A model generated the notes under the pieces. It saw only the letters and a program-made list of their open reading frames with translations. It was not told the DNA's origin and made no database searches. This document shows, piece after piece, positions 43,987 through 56,044 of a stretch of 64,000 nucleotides of DNA. The stretch's first letter is position 1; each line of letters begins with the position of its first letter. The translations under genes and the position numbers were made by a program. The stretch is from Myxococcaceae bacterium (GTDB lineage Bacteria > Myxococcota > Myxococcia > Myxococcales > Myxococcaceae): positions 62,001 through 126,000 of the forward strand of contig JAEUJQ010000032.1 in the NCBI GenBank assembly GCA_016793095.1. The letters run 5' to 3'.

Positions 43987-45321
43987 TCAGTCGTTTCCCT
44001 TGATGCAGGCGACGGGGCGAAGCCGACGGCTCACCTTCGCGAGGCCGGCGAGCTCGACCGCGCCCAGCACCTGCTCGAGGTCCTTGTAGCAGGGCCCCGA
44101 CTCGTCGAGCGGCGTGGTGCGGGTGTTGAGCAGCACGCCGAGGCGCGACATGCGGAGATCGGTGTCCTTCTGCGACAGGCTGCGCTTCGCCTCGTTGCGG
44201 GACAGCCGCCGGCCGGCGCCGTGGTTGACCGAGTAGAGGGACTCGGACGCGCCCGCTTCGGCGAACAGGATGGCCGAGCCGGTCTCCATCGAGCCGGGAA
44301 TGAGAATGGGGTGGCCGGTCGCCTCCCAGGTCGAACCCTTCAGCGCCGGGTGCTTCGCTGGGAACGCGCGCGTCGCCCCCTTGCGGGCCACGAAGCGGCC
44401 AGCCTCCTTCTGGATGAGGTTGTGGGAGATCTCGTAATAGACGTGCGCTTCGCCGCCGAAGACGTGCTCGAGCGCCTCGCACACCGCTTCACCGATGAGG
44501 ATGCGGTTCGCGATGGCGAAGTTGGCCGCCATGTTGTGCAGGTTCCAGTACGCCTTGCCCATGGCCGAGTCGGCGTCGAACCAGACGTGGTCTTCGTGAC
44601 GGCCGCCGGTGAGGCCCAGCGCCTCGGCGCCCGCGACGAAGAACTGCTTCGCGATGTTCCAGCCGAAGCCGCGGCTGCCGGTGTGCAGCATCACCCAGAC
44701 GCGCTGCTCCTCGTCCACCTGCATCTCGCAGAAGTGGTTGCCGCCGCCCAGGCTGCCGAGCTGGTTGCGCTTGTCCCAGGCGCGCGCGGGCACGTCGACC
44801 CGGTCGTCGTCCACCGGAATCGCGGCGCGCTCGGCGCTGTCGTGTGAGTGGCCCAGGGCCTTCGCGCCGTGACGCAGGATCTCCGGGAGCAGCTTCGCGC
44901 CCACCTTGCGGCCGCTCGACTGGCCCACCCCGACGCCGATGCGGCGGATCACCTCGTCGATCCACTGGCGGCGCTTGTCCTTGTCGGCCACGTCAGCCCA
45001 CGTGAGGGTCGTCTTGAGCTGCACCATGCCGCAGCCGATGTCGTAGCCCGCGGCCGTCGGGAGCAGCGTGCCCTCGGTCTCGATGGCCGTGCCGATCGGC
45101 ACGCCGTACCCCACGTGGCAGTCGGGCGTCAGCACCACCCGCGTCGCGCCGGGGAAGGAGCACGCGTTCACCACCTGCGCGAACACGTCCTCCTCGACGC
45201 CTTCGTCGCCGGTCAGCAGCTCGTCGGACAGGAAGAGGTGCGCCTCGCAGCGCATCTGCTTCGTCTTCGGCAACACCCAGTGGCCCGGGCCTGCCTTCGT
45301 CAACGTGGACTTCCAGGACAT
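43987..45321 (-). CDS. rtcB: RtcB, RNA-splicing ligase
   Basis: 444 residues from ATG 45321, which has GGAGG 5 nt upstream; an in-frame ATG at 45405 lacks one. Signature phrases occur in order: TPDCHVGYGVPIGTA, AGYDIGCGM, GSLGGGNHFCE, LHTGSRGFGW, ISHNLIQKE, and YSVNHGAGRRLSR, where the histidine forms the GMP adduct. Two metal ions are bound by the Cys/His/Asp set. RtcB joins 2',3'-cyclic phosphate or 3'-phosphate ends to 5'-OH ends and serves tRNA and rRNA repair. No rtcA, rtcR or archease gene is next to it. Confidence 0.93.
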   Translation of the reverse strand: MSWKSTLTKAGPGHWVLPKTKQMRCEAHLFLSDELLTGDEGVEEDVFAQVVNACSFPGATRVVLTPDCHVGYGVPIGTAIETEGTLLPTAAGYDIGCGMVQLKTTLTWADVADKDKRRQWIDEVIRRIGVGVGQSSGRKVGAKLLPEILRHGAKALGHSHDSAERAAIPVDDDRVDVPARAWDKRNQLGSLGGGNHFCEMQVDEEQRVWVMLHTGSRGFGWNIAKQFFVAGAEALGLTGGRHEDHVWFDADSAMGKAYWNLHNMAANFAIANRILIGEAVCEALEHVFGGEAHVYYEISHNLIQKEAGRFVARKGATRAFPAKHPALKGSTWEATGHPILIPGSMETGSAILFAEAGASESLYSVNHGAGRRLSRNEAKRSLSQKDTDLRMSRLGVLLNTRTTPLDESGPCYKDLEQVLGAVELAGLAKVSRRLRPVACIKGND

Positions 45322-45508
45322 GTGGCCTCCAGGGCCGGTGGACGACGCCGCGCGACGCGTCTGACGGCTCGTGGGTTCGACGAGGTGGTGGGCATCTGAG
45401 TCCATGTGCGGCGCCGACGCGACTGGCGCGACGACTCGTCCAGCTCCTCCGGTGGCGGTGCTGAGCCGGCCGGGGTTGCGCGGCCGCGCGTCAGGCGGGG
45501 AATGCAGA

Positions 45509-45514
45509 TACGGT
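45509..45514 (+). promoter_or_regulatory. candidate -10 element, leaderless-type
   Basis: TACGGT ends 7 nt before the ATG at 45522, and favours that codon over the in-frame GTG at 45513, which lies partly inside the hexamer. Confidence 0.45.
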
Positions 45515-45521
45515 GCGCTGC

Positions 45522-46376
45522 ATGTGCGCCCTGCTCCTGTTGCTCGCCCTGTCGGCCACGCCGCTCGAGACCGCTCAGGCCCACCTGAAGGCGGGGAAGC
45601 TCGACGACGTGCTGTTCGCCCTCGACGGCCAGACCTTCACCGGCGACGACAAGCCGAAGGCCGCCGCGCTGCTCGGTGACGCCGCGAAGGCCGCGTTCGC
45701 GAAGAAGGACGACCTGCTCGCGCTGCAGTTCTCGCAGATGGCCCTCAAGCTCGACCCGAAGCAGCCCGCCGCGCTCGAGACCTCGGCCCGCAGCGCCTGG
45801 GCCCAGCAGCAGTTCGAGACGGCCGAGCGCGCCACCGACACGTGGATCGAGGTGCAACCCGACAACGGCCAGGCCCGCCTGCTGCGCGCCCAGCTCGCCG
45901 TCGACAACGCCGACTGGCAGCTCGCCCTCGATCAGCTCGAGAAGGCGAAGCTGTCGGGCGCCGACGCGAAGAAGGCCCAGGCGCTCAAGGCGAAGGCCAT
46001 GAAGGAGCTCTCGGACAAGAGGTCGAGCCAGTCGGCCATCGCCGCCCTCGAGAAGCAGATCGCCGAGGCCGCCAGAGGGCGAAGCGCCGGCAGCGACCGC
46101 GCCCCCGCGCGCCCATACGTCAACCCCAACACCAGCGACGTCATCATCTACGTCACCTCGTGGTGCGGCTACTGCCGGAAGGCGAAGGCGCTGCTGACGG
46201 CGCGGAAGGTCTTCTTCACCGAGAAGGACATCGAGAAAGACCCTGAGGCCTCGAAGGAGCTGGCGCTCAAAGCAGCGGCCGCCGGGGTGAAGCCGCAGGG
46301 AGTGCCCGTGCTCGACGTGAAGGGCAGGCTCATCCTCGGGTTCGATCAGGGCGCGATCGAAGAGGCGATTCGCTGA
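45522..46376 (+). CDS. exported TPR-glutaredoxin fusion
   Basis: 284 residues from ATG 45522. The N-terminus is a signal peptide (CALLLLLALSATPLETAQA). Residues 20-170 are TPR-like helical pairs (DDLLALQFSQMALKLDPKQPAALE, NGQARLLRAQLAVDNADWQLALDQL). After a basic linker, residues 205-284 are a glutaredoxin: VIIYVTSWCGYCRKAKALL with the CGYC active site, the cis-proline in GVPVLDVKG, and GFDQGAIEEAI. Thiol-disulfide exchange in the periplasm, aimed at partners held by the TPR, is a reasonable inference. Glutaredoxins are usually cytoplasmic and lone, so the fusion is unusual. Confidence 0.8.
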   Translation: MCALLLLLALSATPLETAQAHLKAGKLDDVLFALDGQTFTGDDKPKAAALLGDAAKAAFAKKDDLLALQFSQMALKLDPKQPAALETSARSAWAQQQFETAERATDTWIEVQPDNGQARLLRAQLAVDNADWQLALDQLEKAKLSGADAKKAQALKAKAMKELSDKRSSQSAIAALEKQIAEAARGRSAGSDRAPARPYVNPNTSDVIIYVTSWCGYCRKAKALLTARKVFFTEKDIEKDPEASKELALKAAAAGVKPQGVPVLDVKGRLILGFDQGAIEEAIR

Positions 46377-46380
46377 CCGG

Positions 46381-47292
46381 TCAGCGGGGCAGGTGTGGGG
46401 CGTCGGGGTTGGTCGCCGGCTCTGGCACGGCCTGCAGCATCGCCGCGTCAGCCGAGCGCAGGGCCTGAGTCCCCTCGAACCCCCGGAAGGCCACCGTGCG
46501 GCCGGGGCGGAGCTGTGAGAGCTCGAACAGCTCGTGCCAGGCCGAGAGCACCTCGGGGCTCCGCTTGAGCGCCGTGAGGGCCTGACCGATGGCGAGCGGG
46601 TACTGGGCGCGGGCCTCGGCGACCAGCGTGGCCACCTCACGCGTCGTGTCTGCTTCGAGCTGAGCGACCTCGAGCCGACCGGTCGCTTCGATCTCGGCGG
46701 TGGCGCGCTCGAGCCGCGCCGCGATGGCGTTCGACAGCTCGCTCGCGACCTCGGGTAGCAGCTCGATCTGCTGGATGAAGGCGCTGTCGATGGACAGGCC
46801 CCAGCGCTCGGCTTCGCGGGCGATGTCCGCGCGCAGGCGCTCCCCGAGCTCCTGGCGGTCCTGCAGCACCTGCTGGAAGTCGCTCTTCCCGAGAATCGAC
46901 AGGGCCGCGTGCGCCACCACGCTCTCGAGCGCCTTGTTCCAGTCCGTGACCGCGAACTGCGACTTCACCGAGTCGATGAGGTGCAGCTCGACCCACAGAT
47001 CCACCAGCATCGTGGTGCCGCGGCTGTCGTTGACGTGAATGCCCTTGTACGAGCGGAAGTCTCGCGCCTTCGAGACGTGGAGCACCTGCACCCAGGGCAG
47101 GAGCTTCGAAGGCACGACGTGCAGCCCGGGCCGCGAGAGCTTGCCGACGAAGCGACCGAAGACGGTCACGAGCGCGACCTGCTTGTCATCGACGCTCACC
47201 GTCATCGCGTCGAACAGCTTCGTCACCAACCAGACGCTCCCGACGCCGCCGGCCAGGCCCCCCAGCAGCTGCAGCCAGTCTTGCGCCGTCAT
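46381..47292 (-). CDS. SPFH/Band-7 membrane protein 2
   Basis: 303 residues. A membrane helix (LLGGLAGGVGSVWLVTKLF) is followed by the SPFH core: VTVFGRFVGKLSRPGLHVVP, VDLWVELHLIDSVKSQFAV, and ALSILGKSDFQQVLQDRQELGERLRADI. Then comes an Ala/Glu-rich coiled coil (AIAARLERATAEIEATGRLEVAQLEADTTREV). This is the stomatin/prohibitin/HflK-type order. Such proteins form rings that corral membrane partners. It overlaps the end of the other SPFH gene by 4 nt (ATGA), so the pair likely hetero-oligomerises like HflK/HflC. The glutaredoxin fusion ends 4 nt away on the other strand. Confidence 0.85.
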   Translation of the reverse strand: MTAQDWLQLLGGLAGGVGSVWLVTKLFDAMTVSVDDKQVALVTVFGRFVGKLSRPGLHVVPSKLLPWVQVLHVSKARDFRSYKGIHVNDSRGTTMLVDLWVELHLIDSVKSQFAVTDWNKALESVVAHAALSILGKSDFQQVLQDRQELGERLRADIAREAERWGLSIDSAFIQQIELLPEVASELSNAIAARLERATAEIEATGRLEVAQLEADTTREVATLVAEARAQYPLAIGQALTALKRSPEVLSAWHELFELSQLRPGRTVAFRGFEGTQALRSADAAMLQAVPEPATNPDAPHLPR

Positions 47293-48170
47293 CGCCCCTC
47301 CCCGTCGTTCACGTAGAGCAGCCGCGACTCGGCGAGCACCTCGGCCTTGCGCCGTCGCACGTAGTCCTGCAGCACGCCCTGTTGGTGCAGCGTCGTCAGG
47401 GCCTTGCCGAGCGTCTCGAGCTCGTCGGCCGCGGCGGTCGCGCGCGCCCTGGCGATGGAGACGCCCTGGCGCGCCTCGAGCACCCGCTGGCGGCAGTCGC
47501 TCTCGGCGCGGTAGTGGTGCGCCTCGGCAGCCGACCGCGCCTGCATCACCGCGTTGAGCGCGTCGCGCAGCTCGTCAGGCGGCAGGATGTCGGTGAGATC
47601 GACGGCCTTGAACTCGATGCCGTGCTCGTCGCCGATGCGGGCCTTGCAGAAGTCGGCGATACGGGACGAGAGCAGCCCGCGCTCCCGGCGGATGAGCGCG
47701 TAGCTGCCCGCCTCCTCCGGCAGGGCGTTGGAGACCGAGTGTTGAGCGGGCACGGGCGCCGCCTGCACGTTCGCCAGCTCGTTGCGGAGCAGGCAGGTGA
47801 AGAGCGTCGAGACGTGCTCGAGGGGGTGCTGGAGCCCGAAGAGGAACTCTTCGAGCATCGCCCGGTTCGGCTGGTAACGCAGCGCCGCGTCGAGGCGCAG
47901 CGCAGTGCCGTCGGCGGCCATCGTTCGAATGGCGCCCTCGCCCGCGAGCTCGATGGTCTGCTCCATCATCGAGACGAGCACCACGTGCTGCCACGGCCAC
48001 TTCACCAGGAGCCCGGGCGGCCGGGTCTTGAGCGCGCCGCCCGGCTCGCGCTCCGCCGCGCCGAACGAGGTGAGCACCGCGATGTGCCCCTCGGGTACCC
48101 GCACGCTCGCGGCGCGCAGGCTCCACAGCAGGGCCGCCACCACGCCGAGGATGAGTCCTGTGCTGATCAT
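47289..48170 (-). CDS. SPFH/Band-7 membrane protein 1
   Basis: 293 residues with an N-terminal membrane helix (LILGVVAALLWSL). The SPFH part includes VPEGHIAVLTSFGAAEREPG, PGLLVKWPWQHVVLVSM, ADGTALRLDAALRYQ and ARIGDEHGIEFKAVDLTDILPPDELRDALNAVMQA, followed by a coiled coil with many alanines. It begins 13 nt after the SulP-carbonic anhydrase gene, with GGAG before the ATG, so it is very likely in that operon. A scaffold or stability role for the transporter is inferred from context, as stomatins bind anion and glucose carriers in animal cells. It is not an FtsH-linked HflC by position. Confidence 0.85.
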   Translation of the reverse strand: MISTGLILGVVAALLWSLRAASVRVPEGHIAVLTSFGAAEREPGGALKTRPPGLLVKWPWQHVVLVSMMEQTIELAGEGAIRTMAADGTALRLDAALRYQPNRAMLEEFLFGLQHPLEHVSTLFTCLLRNELANVQAAPVPAQHSVSNALPEEAGSYALIRRERGLLSSRIADFCKARIGDEHGIEFKAVDLTDILPPDELRDALNAVMQARSAAEAHHYRAESDCRQRVLEARQGVSIARARATAAADELETLGKALTTLHQQGVLQDYVRRRKAEVLAESRLLYVNDGEGR

Positions 48171-48183
48171 GTGTGCTCCTGCC

Positions 48184-50277
48184 TCAGAACCGCTCGCCGG
48201 TGGCTACCGACCACCGCTCGTCCCAGACCGCGCCCGGCCGGTCAGTCCCGCCCGGCAGCCGTCGCCCGTTCGCGAGGGCCGCGCGGTACGCCGCCGCGAG
48301 CCCCCGGTTCACGTCCACGACGTCTTCGTTGAAGTGGTGCTGCGCCTCGCTCACCTCGGGGAGGGCGTCGACCTTGTCGGGCGAGTCCACGATGGTGCCG
48401 TGGGGCACGAAGCGCCCGTCTGGCACCGTGACGCCCACCACGACGGCGCCGATGCCGATGAAGCACTGGTTGCCGACCACCGAGTCGTGGACCACCGCCT
48501 TGAAGCCGATGAACGTGTCATCGCCCACGAAGCAGGGCCCGTGCACGAGCGCGTCGTGCGCCATCGACACGTTGCGACCGATGTAGATGGCCCAGCGCTC
48601 GCCGGCGACCTCGACGTGCTTCTCCTTCAGCGCGTGCAGCACCACCCCGTCTTGAATGTTGGAGTTGTCGCCGATGAAGAACGGCGTGCCCTCGTCCGCG
48701 CGCACCGACGAGCCGGCCGCGATGTGCACGTGGTTCCCCAACACCACGTTGCCAATGACCGACGCCTGCGGGTGCACGTAGGCGGTGGGGGCGATGCGCG
48801 GCCGATGGCGTACGTGCGAGAGCCACGCCGCCGCCGACGCCGGAGCTTCGCCGTGGGGCCGGCGGGCGAGCGCGTCTTCCTTCTTCACCACCGCGCGGAT
48901 GCCGGGCTTGAGCTCCTCTTCGATGAGCCGCTGCTCGATGTCCTCGCCGCGATGGAGGAACCTGGAGACCGCGTGCACGCACAGGCCAGCGACGAGGCCT
49001 GCCATGAGGTGGCCCGACACCGTGCCTGCGGCGCTCAGGACGAAGGCGGTGGCCTCGAGCTTCGACTCGCGCGCCAGCTTGAAGAGCGTGCCCACCTCGA
49101 TGAGGCGCACCCCCACGACGCACAACAGCCCCGCCAGCGCCGCGAGCGGCGTCTTCGCGATCTCGGTCGACAGGAGCAGCACGGCCCCGCCCAGCGCGAC
49201 GCCGTGGAGCATCGCCGCGAGCCGCGTCTGCCCACCCGCCTGCACGTTCACTCCCGAGCGCACCACCACGCCGGACACGGGCATGCCCTGCAGCAGGCCC
49301 ACCACGGTGTTGGCCACGCCCTGCCCGAAGAGCTCGAGGGACGGGTGGTGCCTCGGCCGCTCTGGCGTCATGCGGTCGATGGCGCTCGCGGAGAGCAACG
49401 ACTCCACCGCCGCCAGGAGCCCCAGCGGCAACGTCGCCAGGAACAGGTCGAGCCACTGGTCGTCCGGCACGACGGGCAGGCTCAGCCCCGGCAGCCGGTC
49501 AGGCACCGCGCCCACGCGGGTGATGTCCCACCCCAGGTAGTTCGAGACGAAGGTGACCGCGGCGACCGCGACGAGCGCGCCGGGGAACCGCTTGAACTGC
49601 CGGGTGCCCACGACGAACAGCGCGACGAAGAGGCCAGAGACGGCCGCGAGCCACTCGACCTCCTTCAGCCACTCGGGGCGGTGCATCATCGCGGCGAGCT
49701 GAGAGACGCGGTAGTCGAAGCCGAGCAGCTCGGGGATCTGCGCGTCGAGCAGCTTGAGGCCCACGCCGGTGGTGAAGCCCGCCAGCACGCTCTCGGGAAC
49801 GAAGCGCGCGAGGCGCCCCGCCTTCGAGAGCGCGAGAATGAGCTGCAGCAACCCGATCATGAGCGTCGCCGCCGCGACGCCCGTCGGCCCGAAGCGCACC
49901 GCAACCGCCAGGACCATCACCTGCAAAGCCGCCGCGGGTCCCGTCACCTGCAGCGCAGCACCGCCGAACGCGGCCGCCAGAATGCCACCCGCCGCGCCAG
50001 CCACCAGGCCCGCGCTCGCCGGCATGCCCGAGGCGATCGCGAGCGCCAGGTTGAGCGGCAGGGCCACCGCGCCGATGGTCAGCGCCGAGAGGGCGTCGGG
50101 CACCAGCGACTTCCCCGACAGCACCTGGCGCCACCCGTCAGCCCAGGTGCGACCCATCTCCTTCCACTCGGACACGAAGGCCTCGAGGGTCGGTCCTCCG
50201 CCTGACCTGCGTTGTTCGCGCTGGATCGCCATGGGCCCCGGCCGCAGGTTCGACCATGATTCGAGAGTCTCGATCAT
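48184..50277 (-). CDS. SulP anion transporter fused to gamma-carbonic anhydrase
   Basis: 697 residues. Residues 55-440 are a SulP/SLC26 carrier: SGMPASAGLVAGAAGGILAA, LQVTGPAAALQVMV, LLGFDYR, and NTVVGLLQGMPVSGVVVRSG. No STAS domain follows. Instead residues 495-660 are a left-handed beta-helix with the gamma-carbonic anhydrase set: R526, D528, E529, N540, Q542 and zinc ligands H548, H574 and H579 (QDGVVLHAL, NVSMAHDALVHG). The acidic proton-shuttle loop of archaeal Cam is missing; K551 stands at the shuttle glutamate. The inferred role is uptake of bicarbonate coupled to interconversion with CO2 on the cytoplasmic face. ATG 50277 was kept; ATG 50232 is a possible alternative because a palindrome covers the first start. 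Confidence 0.88.
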   Translation of the reverse strand: MIETLESWSNLRPGPMAIQREQRRSGGGPTLEAFVSEWKEMGRTWADGWRQVLSGKSLVPDALSALTIGAVALPLNLALAIASGMPASAGLVAGAAGGILAAAFGGAALQVTGPAAALQVMVLAVAVRFGPTGVAAATLMIGLLQLILALSKAGRLARFVPESVLAGFTTGVGLKLLDAQIPELLGFDYRVSQLAAMMHRPEWLKEVEWLAAVSGLFVALFVVGTRQFKRFPGALVAVAAVTFVSNYLGWDITRVGAVPDRLPGLSLPVVPDDQWLDLFLATLPLGLLAAVESLLSASAIDRMTPERPRHHPSLELFGQGVANTVVGLLQGMPVSGVVVRSGVNVQAGGQTRLAAMLHGVALGGAVLLLSTEIAKTPLAALAGLLCVVGVRLIEVGTLFKLARESKLEATAFVLSAAGTVSGHLMAGLVAGLCVHAVSRFLHRGEDIEQRLIEEELKPGIRAVVKKEDALARRPHGEAPASAAAWLSHVRHRPRIAPTAYVHPQASVIGNVVLGNHVHIAAGSSVRADEGTPFFIGDNSNIQDGVVLHALKEKHVEVAGERWAIYIGRNVSMAHDALVHGPCFVGDDTFIGFKAVVHDSVVGNQCFIGIGAVVVGVTVPDGRFVPHGTIVDSPDKVDALPEVSEAQHHFNEDVVDVNRGLAAAYRAALANGRRLPGGTDRPGAVWDERWSVATGERF
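50256..50277 (-). promoter_or_regulatory. palindrome over the SulP-CA start codon
   Basis: On the minus strand ATGATCGAGA and TCTCGA-A-TCAT flank a single central C, making 10-bp arms with one bulged base. It includes the first eight codons. As RNA it would hide the start; as DNA it could be an operator for a start at 50232. Confidence 0.4.
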
Positions 50278-50526: not shown

Positions 50527-52035
50527 ATGCCAGCCCCTGCAGAGCGCCCCCGGTTCCTGCGAGATCTCGACACCCTCATCCGCGCCCGCTACCCGCTCCT
50601 CTACCTGGTGAGCTGGGAGGAGCAGCGGGTGGACGCGCTCCTGGCCGAGCTCGCGCGCACCCATGGGAAGGACCTGCTCGAGTGGACCGCGACGCGGGGC
50701 CTGCGGGCGTTGACCGGCACCCTGAAGACGCCGCCGGAAGAGACGGTCGAGCCCGCGCGGGCCGTGGTGGCCATCGCGAAGCTCACCACGCCGGCGCTGG
50801 TGGTGCTGAAGGACTTTCACCGGCACCTCGACGATCCGGTGACGGTCCGGGCGCTGCGGGAGCTGGGCTTCCACCTCAAGACCCAGTTCACCACCGCCAT
50901 CGTGGTGGCGCCGTCGCTGAAGCTGCCCGACGAGCTCGAGAAGGACGTGTCGGTCATCGACGTGCCCCTGCCCTCGAAGGCCGACCTGCTCGACCTGCTC
51001 AAGGACATCGCCCGCGTGGTGACGAAGAACAAGCGCGCCACCGTCGAGCTCAACCGGGAGCAGGCCGACGCGCTGGTGAGCGCTGCGCACGGGCTGACGC
51101 TCGCCGAAGCCGAGAACGCCTTCGCCAAGGCCATCGCGCAGGACAACCGGCTCGACTCGAGCGACGTGAAGCTGCTGCTCGACGAGAAGAGCCAGGTCGT
51201 GCGGAAGAACGGGCTGCTCGAGTACTACGCGACCGACCAGTCCCTCGCTGACATCGGCGGGCTGGGCTCGCTCAAGCGCTGGCTCGATCGCCGCAAAGAC
51301 GCCTTCTCGGAGGACGCGCGCGCGTTCGGCCTGCCGGAGCCGAAGGGCGTGCTGCTGCTGGGCGTGCAGGGCTGCGGCAAGTCGCTCACCGCGAGGTCCA
51401 TCGCGACGTCGTGGCGGCTGCCCCTGGTGCGCCTCGACATGGGGCGGATCTACTCGGGCATCATCGGCTCATCGGAGGAGAACCTGCGCCGCGCGATCCG
51501 CGTGGTGGAGTCGCTCGCGCCGGTGGTGCTGTGGGTGGATGAGATCGAGAAGGGCCTCGCCGGCGCCGGTGGCGGCGCCAACGACAGTGGGGTGTCGGCG
51601 CGCGTCTTCGGCACGCTGCTCACCTGGCTTCAGGAGAAGACGGCGCCTGTCTTCGTGGTGGCGACGGCCAACCGCATCGACTCCATGCCGCCCGAGCTGC
51701 TGCGCAAGGGCCGCTTCGACGAGATCTTCTTCATCGACCTGCCGACGAAGGCCGAGCGGCAGGAGATCCTCTCCATTCAGCTCTCGAGGCGCGGGCGCAG
51801 CCCGGCCGACTTCCCCCTCGCCGCCCTCGCCCAGGCCACCGAGCAGTTCAGCGGCGCCGAGCTCGAGCAGGTCGTGGTGAGCGGCATGTACGAGGCCTTC
51901 GCCGACCGGGTGCAGCTCGAGGCGAAGCACCTCGAGGCGGCCGTCAAGGAGACGCTGCCCCTCGCGGTGACGATGGCGGAAGACGTCGATCGCCTGCGAC
52001 AATGGGCGAAGCACCGCACCCGGTCCGCGTCGTGA
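50527..52035 (+). CDS. Ycf46-family AAA+ ATPase
   Basis: 502 residues. The N-terminal 230 residues form the Ycf46-specific domain ([23 protein letters not shown] at 17-39). The AAA+ core has Walker A GVQGCGKS (K285), Walker [12 protein letters not shown] (D338, E339), then [26 protein letters not shown] and [15 protein letters not shown], and a lid with FSGAELEQ. These phrases match algal and cyanobacterial Ycf46. As I recall, Ycf46 is linked to inorganic-carbon use in Synechocystis. Here it faces the SulP-carbonic anhydrase gene across 249 bp, which fits such a role in a non-phototroph. Confidence 0.9.
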
Positions 52036-52738: not shown

Positions 52739-53419
52739 TCAGAGCTCAGGCAACCGGCCGTCGAGGACGATGCGGCGCTCGAGGACGCCCTCGAACGGCT
52801 TGCGCCTCGCGATGAGGTGCAGCCGCTCGCACTCTGCCCAGACCAGCGGGCCGAGGAGCTGCCAGTTCGGCGGGTCGACGACGGTGAGCCGCAGCTGGCC
52901 GAGCGTGAAGCCCATCGGCGCGGCGCCCTTCGCCGGCGTCACTGCCTCGACTGCGCGAGGAAGGGCGCTCCGCAGCGCCGCGACGAACCGGGGCTCGAGC
53001 TTCGTGTCGGCGGTAGGCCCGATGAGAATCGCGAAGCCGTCGGTGTGGGTGCGGACGATCTTCGCCCGGGGCACGAGCTCTTTCATCGTCGCCACCATCG
53101 CCTTGAGCGCGAGGTCACCAGCGGGAAAGCCGTGGTGCATGTTGAAGACGGTGAGCTCGCGCGGGTCGATGACGATCGCCTCGAGCACCCAGCCGTCGGC
53201 GTGGCCGTGCGTGGACAGGTCGTACTCCTCCTTGAGGAGGGTGCCCTGATTGAGCGCCAGCGCCTGGAACGCGCCGGTCGGGTCCGGGTGGCCAGCGCGG
53301 TGCAGCTCGGCGTCGACGAGCTGATCGACGAGCCACGTGGGGGCGTCGGGCCGGCCGGCGGCACGCGGGAAGAGGTGCCGCAGGGCGCGTTCGCTCTGCT
53401 CTGAGATGGTGAAGGACAT
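52739..53419 (-). CDS. degenerate GGDEF-domain protein
   Basis: 226 residues. The segment ELTVFNMHHGFPAGDLALKAMVATMKELVPRAKIVRTHTDGFAILIG follows the helix-strand-strand order of diguanylate cyclases: F-N--HG at the Mg/GTP half, GD-ALK-M, and then the signature loop. The loop reads THTDGF (residues 124-129) in place of GGDEF, so both metal-binding acidic residues at the right positions are lost. It is probably inactive and may bind GTP or c-di-GMP as a receptor. No membrane or receiver domain precedes it. The lone PilZ protein lies 5 kb away. Confidence 0.65.
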   Translation of the reverse strand: MSFTISEQSERALRHLFPRAAGRPDAPTWLVDQLVDAELHRAGHPDPTGAFQALALNQGTLLKEEYDLSTHGHADGWVLEAIVIDPRELTVFNMHHGFPAGDLALKAMVATMKELVPRAKIVRTHTDGFAILIGPTADTKLEPRFVAALRSALPRAVEAVTPAKGAAPMGFTLGQLRLTVVDPPNWQLLGPLVWAECERLHLIARRKPFEGVLERRIVLDGRLPEL

Positions 53420-53444: not shown

Positions 53445-55187
53445 CTACGGGCGGGTGGTGAAGGCGTTCCCACCGCTGCCCACGCCGAGCAGGCCGCAGC
53501 GATCGGCCCCACGCACGCGGGCGATGTGGCCGGTGGGGGGCGTCGCGGGACCGAACGACGTCCACGCGCTTCCGTCCCAGTACGCCAGGCCGACGCGGCC
53601 GCGACTCGGGTCGTGCCCCACCGCATAGACCTCGTTCGCTTCGAACACCTTGAGCCCGTACACGTCGATGGGGGGCGCGGTGCGGTAGGCCCATGCCGTT
53701 CCGTTGAACTCGACGAAGGCCAGACCCGCGGCGAAGCCCAGCGACGGACTCGGGACGTCCACCGCGAAGAGGTTCGTCCCGCCATTGCTGTTGCTGAACA
53801 GCGCGTCCCAGTTGGTCGATGTGGGGTTGTACGTCCACAAACGGTTCCGCATCTGAACGGAGTGGTCCCAGCCGCACGCCCAGGCTTCTGAGGATGAGGG
53901 GCCGCTGAGTTCCCACAGCTGGGCACCACCGGGAGAGGCCGTGTCGAGCAGGCCACCGTCGGGCCGGAATCGTTGAATCGCGACCCCTGAGGCCGAGAAC
54001 CCTCCGACGAAGATGAAGTCGCTGAAGGCGCGCACGGCCATCGCCTGCCAGCCGGCGCCGGGCCCCGACGAGACGACGGTGCACTGCCCTGCTGCAGACC
54101 ACTGCAGCAGCTGCCCCTGCGAGGTGGCGATGAAGACGGCCTGATCCGACGATCGGACCGAGATGCCCATGAAGTCGGCGCCGAGGATCGCGCAGGACCC
54201 ACCGCCGATGTTGGTGACGCCACCATCCGCGGGACGGTAGCGGGTGATGGAGCTCTGTTCCCCGACGAGGATGAAGTCGTCTCCGAAGCGCTGCAGGTCG
54301 TTCCAGGTGGTGTTTCCGATCGTGAAAAAGCGCACCGGACACCCGCCATCGAGCGGAGTACCGGAGCCTCCCGCCGAGCCTCCGGCCGCACCACCGGCCG
54401 AGCCTCCCGCGGCGGCACCACCAGCCGAGCCTCCCGCCGCACCACCGGCCGAGCCTCCCGCCGCACCACCGGCCGAGCCTCCCGCCGCACCACCCGCTGA
54501 GCCACCCGCCGCACCACCCGCCGCGCCACCAGCCGAGCCGCCCGCGGCACCACCGGCCAAGCCACCCGCCGCACCACCGGCCGAGCCACCCGCCGCGCCT
54601 CCCGCAGCACCACCAGCCGCACCACCGGCCGAGCCACCCGCCGAGCCACCCGCCGAGCCTCCCGCGGCGGCCCCACCCGCCGAGCCTCCCGCCGCACCAC
54701 CCGCCGCGCCTCCCGCCGCACCACCGGCCGAGCCTCCCGCCGCACCACCGGCCGTCCCTCCTGCAGTCCCGCCCCCGCCACCCGTGCCTCCGTCGAACGG
54801 GCTCTGCCGCAGCGTGAGTCGGATGATCTGCACCTCGTCCACCTTGAAGGTGGCCCTGCCAGTCTCCACCGCTTCGGGCACAGCGCGACAATCGGCCCCG
54901 CGGTGCAGCGACGCGCGGACCTCCACGCTGTCGGTCCACTCGGGCTTGCGGACGATGCCGAGCGTGATGGAGCCCATCGAACCGCGTGAGGTGATGTCGA
55001 CGTTGGTGGCCTCGAAGCGCTCTGGCTCGCTGCCCACCGACGCGAGGTCCACCGTGGCCACGCGGATGCACGCCGGCAGGCTGTCGACGCGCACGAAGTC
55101 GATCACCGCGCTGACGCCACCCTCGGTCTTCTGACCGCACGCAGACGCAAGTCCCACCAACACGAGGCCGAGGCGCAACCGCTCCAT
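53445..55187 (-). CDS. surface lipoprotein with Gly/Ala/Ser linker
   Basis: 580 residues from ATG 55187. The lipobox is LVLVGLASACG. Residues 18-130 are a beta-rich domain (DFVRVDSLPACIRVATVDL). About 144 residues of G-G-[SAT]-A repeats follow. After TPLDGGCPVRFFTIG the last 300 residues look like a beta-propeller built of repeated units that end in W or F and contain asp-gly turns (QRFGDDFILVGEQSSITRYRP, WQAMAVRAFSDFIFVGGF, LGFAAGLAFVEFNG, VYAVGHDPSRGRVGLAYWDG). The linker may span peptidoglycan or a surface layer. The binding target is unknown. It starts 11 nt after argB ends. Confidence 0.75.
   Translation of the reverse strand: MERLRLGLVLVGLASACGQKTEGGVSAVIDFVRVDSLPACIRVATVDLASVGSEPERFEATNVDITSRGSMGSITLGIVRKPEWTDSVEVRASLHRGADCRAVPEAVETGRATFKVDEVQIIRLTLRQSPFDGGTGGGGGTAGGTAGGAAGGSAGGAAGGAAGGAAGGSAGGAAAGGSAGGSAGGSAGGAAGGAAGGAAGGSAGGAAGGLAGGAAGGSAGGAAGGAAGGSAGGAAGGSAGGAAGGSAGGAAGGSAGGAAAGGSAGGAAGGSAGGSGTPLDGGCPVRFFTIGNTTWNDLQRFGDDFILVGEQSSITRYRPADGGVTNIGGGSCAILGADFMGISVRSSDQAVFIATSQGQLLQWSAAGQCTVVSSGPGAGWQAMAVRAFSDFIFVGGFSASGVAIQRFRPDGGLLDTASPGGAQLWELSGPSSSEAWACGWDHSVQMRNRLWTYNPTSTNWDALFSNSNGGTNLFAVDVPSPSLGFAAGLAFVEFNGTAWAYRTAPPIDVYGLKVFEANEVYAVGHDPSRGRVGLAYWDGSAWTSFGPATPPTGHIARVRGADRCGLLGVGSGGNAFTTRP
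54361..54792 (-). repeat. Gly/Ala/Ser codon repeat, about 430 bp
   Basis: An irregular array of GGC/GGT, GCC/GCG and TCG codons that encodes GGSAGGAAGG units of 5-12 residues in varied order. The opposite strand reads PPAEPPAA units. Such tracts are prone to length change by slippage in steps that keep frame. Confidence 0.85.
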
Positions 55188-55198
55188 GACGTCCCAGT

Positions 55199-56044
55199 CT
55201 ACGCCTTTGCGAACACCGTTCCGCAACGCCCGGGCTCGAGCGCCTCGTCGAGGATGGCCGTCTCGACCGACAGCCCGACGATGTGGATGGCGTCGATGCC
55301 CTCGTCCAGCATCGCGAGGCTCTCCTCGACCTTGGGGATCATGCCGCCCTGGATGACCCCCGCGGCGATCTGCGCCTTCGCCTCCGAGGGAGTCAGCCTC
55401 GAGATTCGCGTCGCCGGGTCGTTCTTGTCCCGCAGGACGCCGGGCACGTTCGACACGATCAAGAGCTTCGCCGCGCGGAGCTTGCCCGCGACCCGGGTCG
55501 CGACGGTGTCGGCGTTCACGTTGAACACCCGGCCGTGCACGTCGCCAGCGAGAGAGCCGAGCGCGACGACGACCCCACGCTCCGACAGCGTCTCGAGCAG
55601 CGTCACGTTCACCGCCGCGATGTCGCCCACCAGCCCATAGTCCACCGGGCCCTCGACGCCCGCGACGGCGACCGGAGGCCGCCTGCTCGCGTCCACGAGA
55701 CCGGCAGACACGCCTGTCGTGCAGAGCGCCGGCACGCCCGCCAGGCGGAGCGCGCTCGCGACGTTCACCGACACCTGCCCGGCGAGCGTCATCTTCATCA
55801 CCTCGAGCGTCGCCTCGTCCGTCACGCGCTGACCCGCCACCTGCTTCGTCTCGAGCCCGAGCTTCTTCGCGAGCTCGGTGGCCTGCGGGCCGCCGCCGTG
55901 CACCACGCAGACCTTGATGCCGGCGTCGAGGAACGCGCGCACCGCGCTCCCGACGGTGCGGGACAGGCGCGCGACGTCCTGCGCCAGCTCTCCACCAATC
56001 TTCACGACGAACCAGCGGTCCCGAAACGAAGCGAGGTCAGCCAC
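55199..56044 (-). CDS. argB: acetylglutamate kinase
   Basis: 281 residues from a GTG. The amino-acid kinase pattern is complete: FVVKIGGELAQD (K15), CVVHGGGPQATEL, GQRVTDEATLEVMKMTLAG, GLVGDIAAVN, NVNADTVATRVAGKLRAAKLLIVSNVPGVL, and GGMIPKVEESL. It phosphorylates N-acetylglutamate, the second step to arginine. The N-terminal helix typical of arginine-inhibited hexameric forms is short here, so feedback control is uncertain. The aldehyde dehydrogenase gene of the arginine succinyltransferase type lies 30 nt upstream on the same strand. Confidence 0.92.
   Translation of the reverse strand: MADLASFRDRWFVVKIGGELAQDVARLSRTVGSAVRAFLDAGIKVCVVHGGGPQATELAKKLGLETKQVAGQRVTDEATLEVMKMTLAGQVSVNVASALRLAGVPALCTTGVSAGLVDASRRPPVAVAGVEGPVDYGLVGDIAAVNVTLLETLSERGVVVALGSLAGDVHGRVFNVNADTVATRVAGKLRAAKLLIVSNVPGVLRDKNDPATRISRLTPSEAKAQIAAGVIQGGMIPKVEESLAMLDEGIDAIHIVGLSVETAILDEALEPGRCGTVFAKA

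Follow-up and report, generated by a model that had tools for sequence, protein, structure and literature searches.

A SulP Carrier Fused to a Gamma-Class Carbonic Anhydrase and Encoded with an SPFH Pair in Myxococcota and Bdellovibrionota

1. Introduction

For animal proteins, there is a long-standing debate over whether carbonic anhydrase (CA) couples physically to bicarbonate carriers in a transport 'metabolon'. BicA, the cyanobacterial SulP protein that serves as a bicarbonate/Na+ symporter, retains a STAS domain. SulP proteins are also known joined to, or encoded beside, a beta-class CA, and bicarbonate transport has been proposed for such fusions and pairs; the fusions go back to Felce and Saier (2004), as cited in PMC10350532 and PMC5489568. 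SulP/SLC26 proteins function in dimeric form, and STAS serves as a platform of the dimer (PMC6497670, PMC11214054). SPFH proteins, in turn, can enclose other membrane proteins: HflK/C surrounds FtsH, and both AQP1 and trimeric UT-B have been seen inside native stomatin domes (PMC12407830).

Here, we analyze a fusion gene in a window of 64,000 nucleotides from a Myxococcaceae bacterium, where a complete SulP carrier is followed by a gamma-class CA of the Cam kind, and the gene heads an operon with two SPFH genes. No literature report of a gamma-type SulP–CA fusion was found, with a mention in Felce and Saier (2004) being possible, and no paper was found that links SPFH and SulP proteins. The initial annotation had stated that beta-type SulP–CA fusions are known, which agrees with the literature citing Felce and Saier and with SulP–STAS–beta-CA fusions that we observed in Bdellovibrionota. 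These triple fusions lie at L141:4850-7072 and L142:4668-6974 (both minus strand) and L143:3850-6147, two of them in the same genome (G259). In all three, a Pro_CA domain (PF00484) stands behind a retained STAS, whereas the window's protein has a gamma-class CA and lacks STAS; Pro_CA had no match in 40 gamma fusions. The protein described here is a gamma-class form of the SulP–CA fusions, and its link to SPFH proteins would add more if the dome discussed in Section 6 is real.

2. The Fusion Gene

The gene lies in a minus-strand open reading frame of 697 codons without internal stop (48184-50277), which opens at position 50277. Relatives begin at a conserved MAIQRE, corresponding to codon 16 of this frame, so the true coding sequence probably runs from 50232 to 48184 on the minus strand and encodes 682 amino acids. 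In this soil-bacterium protein, Pfam finds Sulfate_transp (PF00916) at residues 61-413 (E 4e-57) together with hexapeptide repeats, but no STAS match at E<=1. Across 40 fusions scanned with Pfam, STAS matched in 0/40 at E<=0.01, while SulP–STAS comparators do match, and the idea of a STAS too diverged to detect was rejected on this count. The architecture proposed in the initial annotation, a complete SulP followed by a gamma-CA in Cam context with loss of STAS, is upheld by the Pfam result, by the Cam and CcmM matches given below, and by its recurrence in 46 loci.

Could the gene be an assembly or sequencing artefact joining two neighbors, as the same annotation had conceded for a merge at about 48800-48900? 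Most relatives are metagenome-assembled genomes, which would favor such an artefact. However, the identical junction recurs in dozens of independent assemblies from two phyla, among them a named isolate, Citreicoccus inhibens M34 (L058), and single-contig genomes. Moreover, same-genus copies reveal purifying selection on both halves, with dN/dS of about 0.13-0.20; the CA half is the slower-changing one, and the tail has a higher ratio. An artefactual merge was rejected on the recurrence of the fusion, and we give it practically no credence.

3. The SulP Carrier Half

The carrier domain (residues 61-413) is encoded at 49039..50097 on the minus strand. AlphaFold models this half with confidence, in the 7+7 fold of SulP/SLC26 proteins; their C-terminal STAS, typical of the family and not universal, is absent. 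The best structural match of the predicted model is BicA (6ki1; Z 49.4, with an rmsd of 2.6 over 369 residues); SLC26Dg gives Z 48, and Z values span 46-49 across BicA, SLC26Dg, and SLC26A11. VIA-align of the fusion model gave no carbonic anhydrase among the matches listed, all places being taken by matches to the SulP half.

Two residues set this carrier apart from its structural neighbor. Glu292 in TM8 (49402..49404, minus strand), aligned with the TM8 Asp of BicA, is Glu in 44/44 fusions holding the site, and Arg340 in TM10 (49258..49260, minus strand), found in neither BicA nor SLC26Dg, is Arg in 44/44. The compared CA-fused SulPs, whether gamma or beta, keep both the Glu and the Arg. Since BicA carries Asp at the TM8 position and lacks the Arg of TM10, ion coupling in the fusion may differ from the Na+ coupling of BicA, which also differs in having no fused CA.

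4. The Gamma-Carbonic Anhydrase Half

The CA domain (residues 488-668; 48274..48816, minus strand) occupies the place of STAS. Residues 492-665 match Cam structures (3ow5, 1qrf, and others) with E 3e-51, and the C-terminal half matches CcmM (3kwc) with E 5e-49. The AlphaFold model of this domain is of middling confidence, with pLDDT mostly 50-79. The three zinc ligands, His548 (Cam His81; 48634..48636), His574 (Cam His117; 48556..48558), and His579 (Cam His122; 48541..48543), all on the minus strand, are present in 46/46 loci. Arg526, Asp528, Glu529, Asn540, and Gln542 are likewise invariant, which bears out every catalytic residue and zinc histidine named in the initial annotation, and so are Asp543 and Asn657 (Cam Asp76 and Asn202). 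In Cam numbering, the invariant set reads R59, D61, E62, N73, Q75, D76, H81, H117, H122, and N202. Thus, all 46 loci encode a hexapeptide-repeat CA with the three zinc histidines and the full set of Cam-type catalytic residues, as in Cam and CcmM themselves.

The domain departs from the Cam subclass in two respects, both anticipated from the window's sequence and since confirmed: the proton-shuttle Glu84 of Cam is replaced by Lys551 (48625..48627, minus strand), a lysine in 46/46 loci, and the alignment shows no counterpart of Cam's acidic-loop insert. Lys at the Glu84 position is not unusual: of four free-standing Cam-like proteins from Bacillota, two share it. With Cam's proton shuttle removed by the lysine, CA activity may be low. 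Unlike Cam, the domain is joined to a carrier, and unlike CcmM, it lacks RubisCO-binding small-subunit-like repeats and bears a short variable tail instead.

This tail (48187..48273, minus strand) follows the last CA helix and varies between 17 and 61 residues, ending in a conserved -[DE]-R-F. The terminal residue is Phe in 45/45 complete fusions and the last two are Arg-Phe in 36/45; a W[DES]xxW motif stands near the end in 31 of 45. A conserved end carried on a linker that varies resembles a docking peptide, and the most evident candidate for its partner is the SPFH assembly.

The fusion is not the sole CA of its cell, a possibility that was rejected since one or more beta-CAs occur in every one of the 17 Myxococcota genomes that carry the fusion. 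Because all fusion genomes also carry beta-CAs, the fusion has a special task. The window's own genome (8.8 Mb) holds three beta-CA matches, and no SulP besides the fusion was found there.

5. The SPFH Pair, Distribution, and Evolutionary History

The fusion is followed on the same strand by two adjacent Band_7 genes. SPFH1 (47289..48170, minus strand) starts 13 bases downstream of the fusion and encodes an N-terminal TM helix, an SPFH domain, and a long coiled coil; it is closest to HflC in sequence and predicted fold. SPFH2 (46381..47292, minus strand), closest in sequence to stomatin, QmcA, and HflK, has a start that overlaps the SPFH1 stop by four bases (ATGA). The two genes have the build of an HflK/C-type pair (TM helix, SPFH domain, and coiled coil), with the fold predicted for SPFH1 only. 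Among 42 loci (L017-L058), SPFH1 lies downstream of the fusion in 40 and SPFH2 in 38, every absence being a contig end, and the four-base overlap is available in 35/42 loci having both genes. The functional unit is therefore a three-gene operon, with the fusion first, then SPFH1 and SPFH2, a context that the initial annotation had missed. As for topology, no Lys or Arg precedes the TM helix in 26 of 27 SPFH1 N-termini. Charge is a weak topology predictor, but this pattern suggests that the SPFH domain lies in the cytosol. The C-terminus of SulP proteins faces the cytosol, the same side as predicted here for the SPFH domain.

No fourth conserved gene was found around the operon, and other gene clusters recurring at many loci proved to be shadow frames of the three operon genes. 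In the window, the operon is flanked by genes for RtcB (43987-45405, minus strand), a TPR-glutaredoxin protein (45513-46376, plus strand), and a divergent AAA ATPase (50527-52035, plus strand); these were rejected as operon-wide partners, as they are kept beside it only within the window's genus. In Pseudomonas, too, SPFH genes are reported to adjoin rtc genes (PMC13086221). Farther out, a putative lipoprotein frame (53445-55226, minus strand) contains a long Gly/Ala/Ser repeat (GGAAGGSAGG...), and a predicted tRNA-Ser(GGA) (53232-53321, plus strand) lies just past its 3' end on the opposite strand.

The fusion is known from 46 loci in Myxococcota and Bdellovibrionota. It occurs in 17 of 195 Myxococcota genomes, covering the window's genus and five others, and in 2 of 192 genomes of Bdellovibrionota, the phylum of L049. 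A species-level genome collection, scanned with two peptide patterns that may miss more distant fusions, holds at least 40 near-complete fusion loci and two that are end-cut. The SPFH1 clade, delimited at E<1e-60, coincides with the fusion genome for genome, both being confined to the same 17 among 195 Myxococcota genomes, counts that are phylogenetically non-independent; the next matches, at 1e-44 or weaker, resemble other SPFH proteins. In Bacillota and cyanobacteria, the loci of free-standing Cam-like genes have no SulP or SPFH match of the fusion-operon kind.

The two halves of the protein have different histories. All CA halves group in a single clade that excludes Cam, CcmM, and the Bacillota relatives, with modest support (91/90). 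The SulP halves fall into two lineages, and a single clade is rejected (AU p 7.6e-47) in the decisive tree, to which L148, L150, L151, and two more distant SulPs had been added; an earlier tree without near relatives of L052-L054 did not reject one clade (AU 0.25). Main-group SulP halves have STAS-bearing SulPs from their own family as the sister group; those of L052-L054 belong with unfused SulPs at 55-58% identity, or 57% as against 23% to the window. These swapped-carrier loci (L052:4639-6765, L053:4214-6307, and L054:4596-6707) have the same CA and SPFH genes with a SulP from another lineage.

Two of three unfused SulP relatives sit 11-26 bases downstream of a beta-CA gene, recognized by its beta-CA motif and a Pfam Pro_CA match. 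At L154:2669-4788 and L155:2836-4988, a beta-CA gene is followed by an unfused SulP of ~465 residues, the closest relatives of the swapped carrier. L149 (contig G110:C86) contains a SulP 57% identical to the L053 carrier within an open frame of 833 codons. On the trees, the carrier half has been replaced once, with the CA and SPFH parts retained. Two SulP lineages, one of them CA-paired elsewhere, have been joined to one CA–SPFH module, the replacing carrier probably coming from a CA-paired line. That the swap probably drew on CA-paired SulPs is the best indirect evidence for bicarbonate as the substrate.

6. Proposed Mechanism and Alternatives

Our main reading is an operon-encoded inorganic-carbon machine, in which a bicarbonate carrier feeds a tethered gamma-CA under an SPFH dome; we put its probability at roughly 0.5. 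The sequences themselves show the fusion, its invariant active site, the loss of STAS, the operon, its co-occurrence pattern, and the exchanged SulP half; we infer the carrier's substrate, CA activity, the trimer, the cytosolic dome, tail docking, and the direction of flux as parts of this machine. The SulP half would carry bicarbonate across the inner membrane, possibly with H+ or in exchange, and the gamma-CA at the cytosolic C-terminus, the usual place of STAS, would interconvert HCO3- and CO2 at the carrier mouth, making a coupling of bicarbonate transport to CO2 chemistry in the fusion plausible. Because the zinc site of Cam lies between subunits, the CA domain is proposed to work as a trimer, which would also replace STAS as oligomerization element. 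SPFH1 and SPFH2 would form a hetero-oligomeric ring or dome on the cytosolic side, as HflK/C, prohibitin, and stomatin do, corralling the fusion, and the -RF tail may dock the fusion to the dome. Like HflK/HflC–FtsH and stomatin–AQP1/UT-B, the operon combines HflC-like and HflK/stomatin-like genes whose relatives enclose membrane proteins; unlike those systems, its partner is a carrier–CA fusion, its SPFH domains look cytosolic, and its enclosure is a prediction. Several points count against this explanation. Among them are the low CA activity that Lys at Glu84 may entail, the middling confidence of the CA model, and the beta-CAs of the 17 genomes, which make the fusion dispensable as the cell's only CA. 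Given dimeric SulP/SLC26 proteins with a STAS platform, a trimeric CA at the STAS position would call for another kind of assembly, as SulP dimers and CA trimers are mismatched in symmetry. Likewise, the predicted contact between SPFH proteins and fusion has to be weighed against the varied roles of SPFH proteins. A more specific form, in which a cytosolic SPFH1/SPFH2 dome over carrier–gamma-CA trimers docked by Arg-Phe makes up a CO2/bicarbonate membrane microcompartment, with bicarbonate entering, or respired CO2 exiting as bicarbonate, via the confined space, is tentative and somewhat unlikely.

Two other explanations keep parts of the machine and drop others. An active gamma-CA may serve the SulP with the SPFH proteins acting only as quality-control or membrane-domain helpers, without an enclosing dome, as might be expected from SPFH roles that are often unclear and context-dependent, HflK/C for instance regulating the protease FtsH. 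We regard this as unlikely: exactly one fusion goes with exactly these two SPFH clades in both phyla, even where the SulP has been swapped, which argues for a direct partner, and the beta-CA fusions L141-L143 have no SPFH genes of the operon type in the flanks read. Alternatively, the gamma-CA half would mainly be a trimerization or CO2/bicarbonate-sensing module on a SulP that carries sulfate or another anion. The invariance of every catalytic residue in 46/46 loci, needless in a scaffold, speaks against this, as do the relation of the second SulP lineage to SulPs paired with beta-CA and the TM8 residue of the STAS-bearing sister group, which is Gly, not Glu. Even so, the closest relatives of the main-group SulPs are STAS-bearing SulPs without an assigned substrate, the Glu84 shuttle is gone, the sulfate carrier AtSULTR4;1 has the TM10 Arg too in the alignment, and the window's genome holds a single SulP. 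On balance, a sensing or scaffolding role seems to us distinctly unlikely, and the operon-encoded inorganic-carbon machine remains the preferred reading.

7. Significance

With one CA joined to two SulP lineages, the CA–SPFH part emerges as the stable core of the system. Since carrier and enzyme are fixed in one chain, point changes of the zinc ligands could directly test whether transport is accelerated by catalysis. With its obligatory pair, the operon offers a rare SPFH assembly with a predicted dedicated client, which, if true, makes the idea of a 'dome over a carrier' testable in bacteria.
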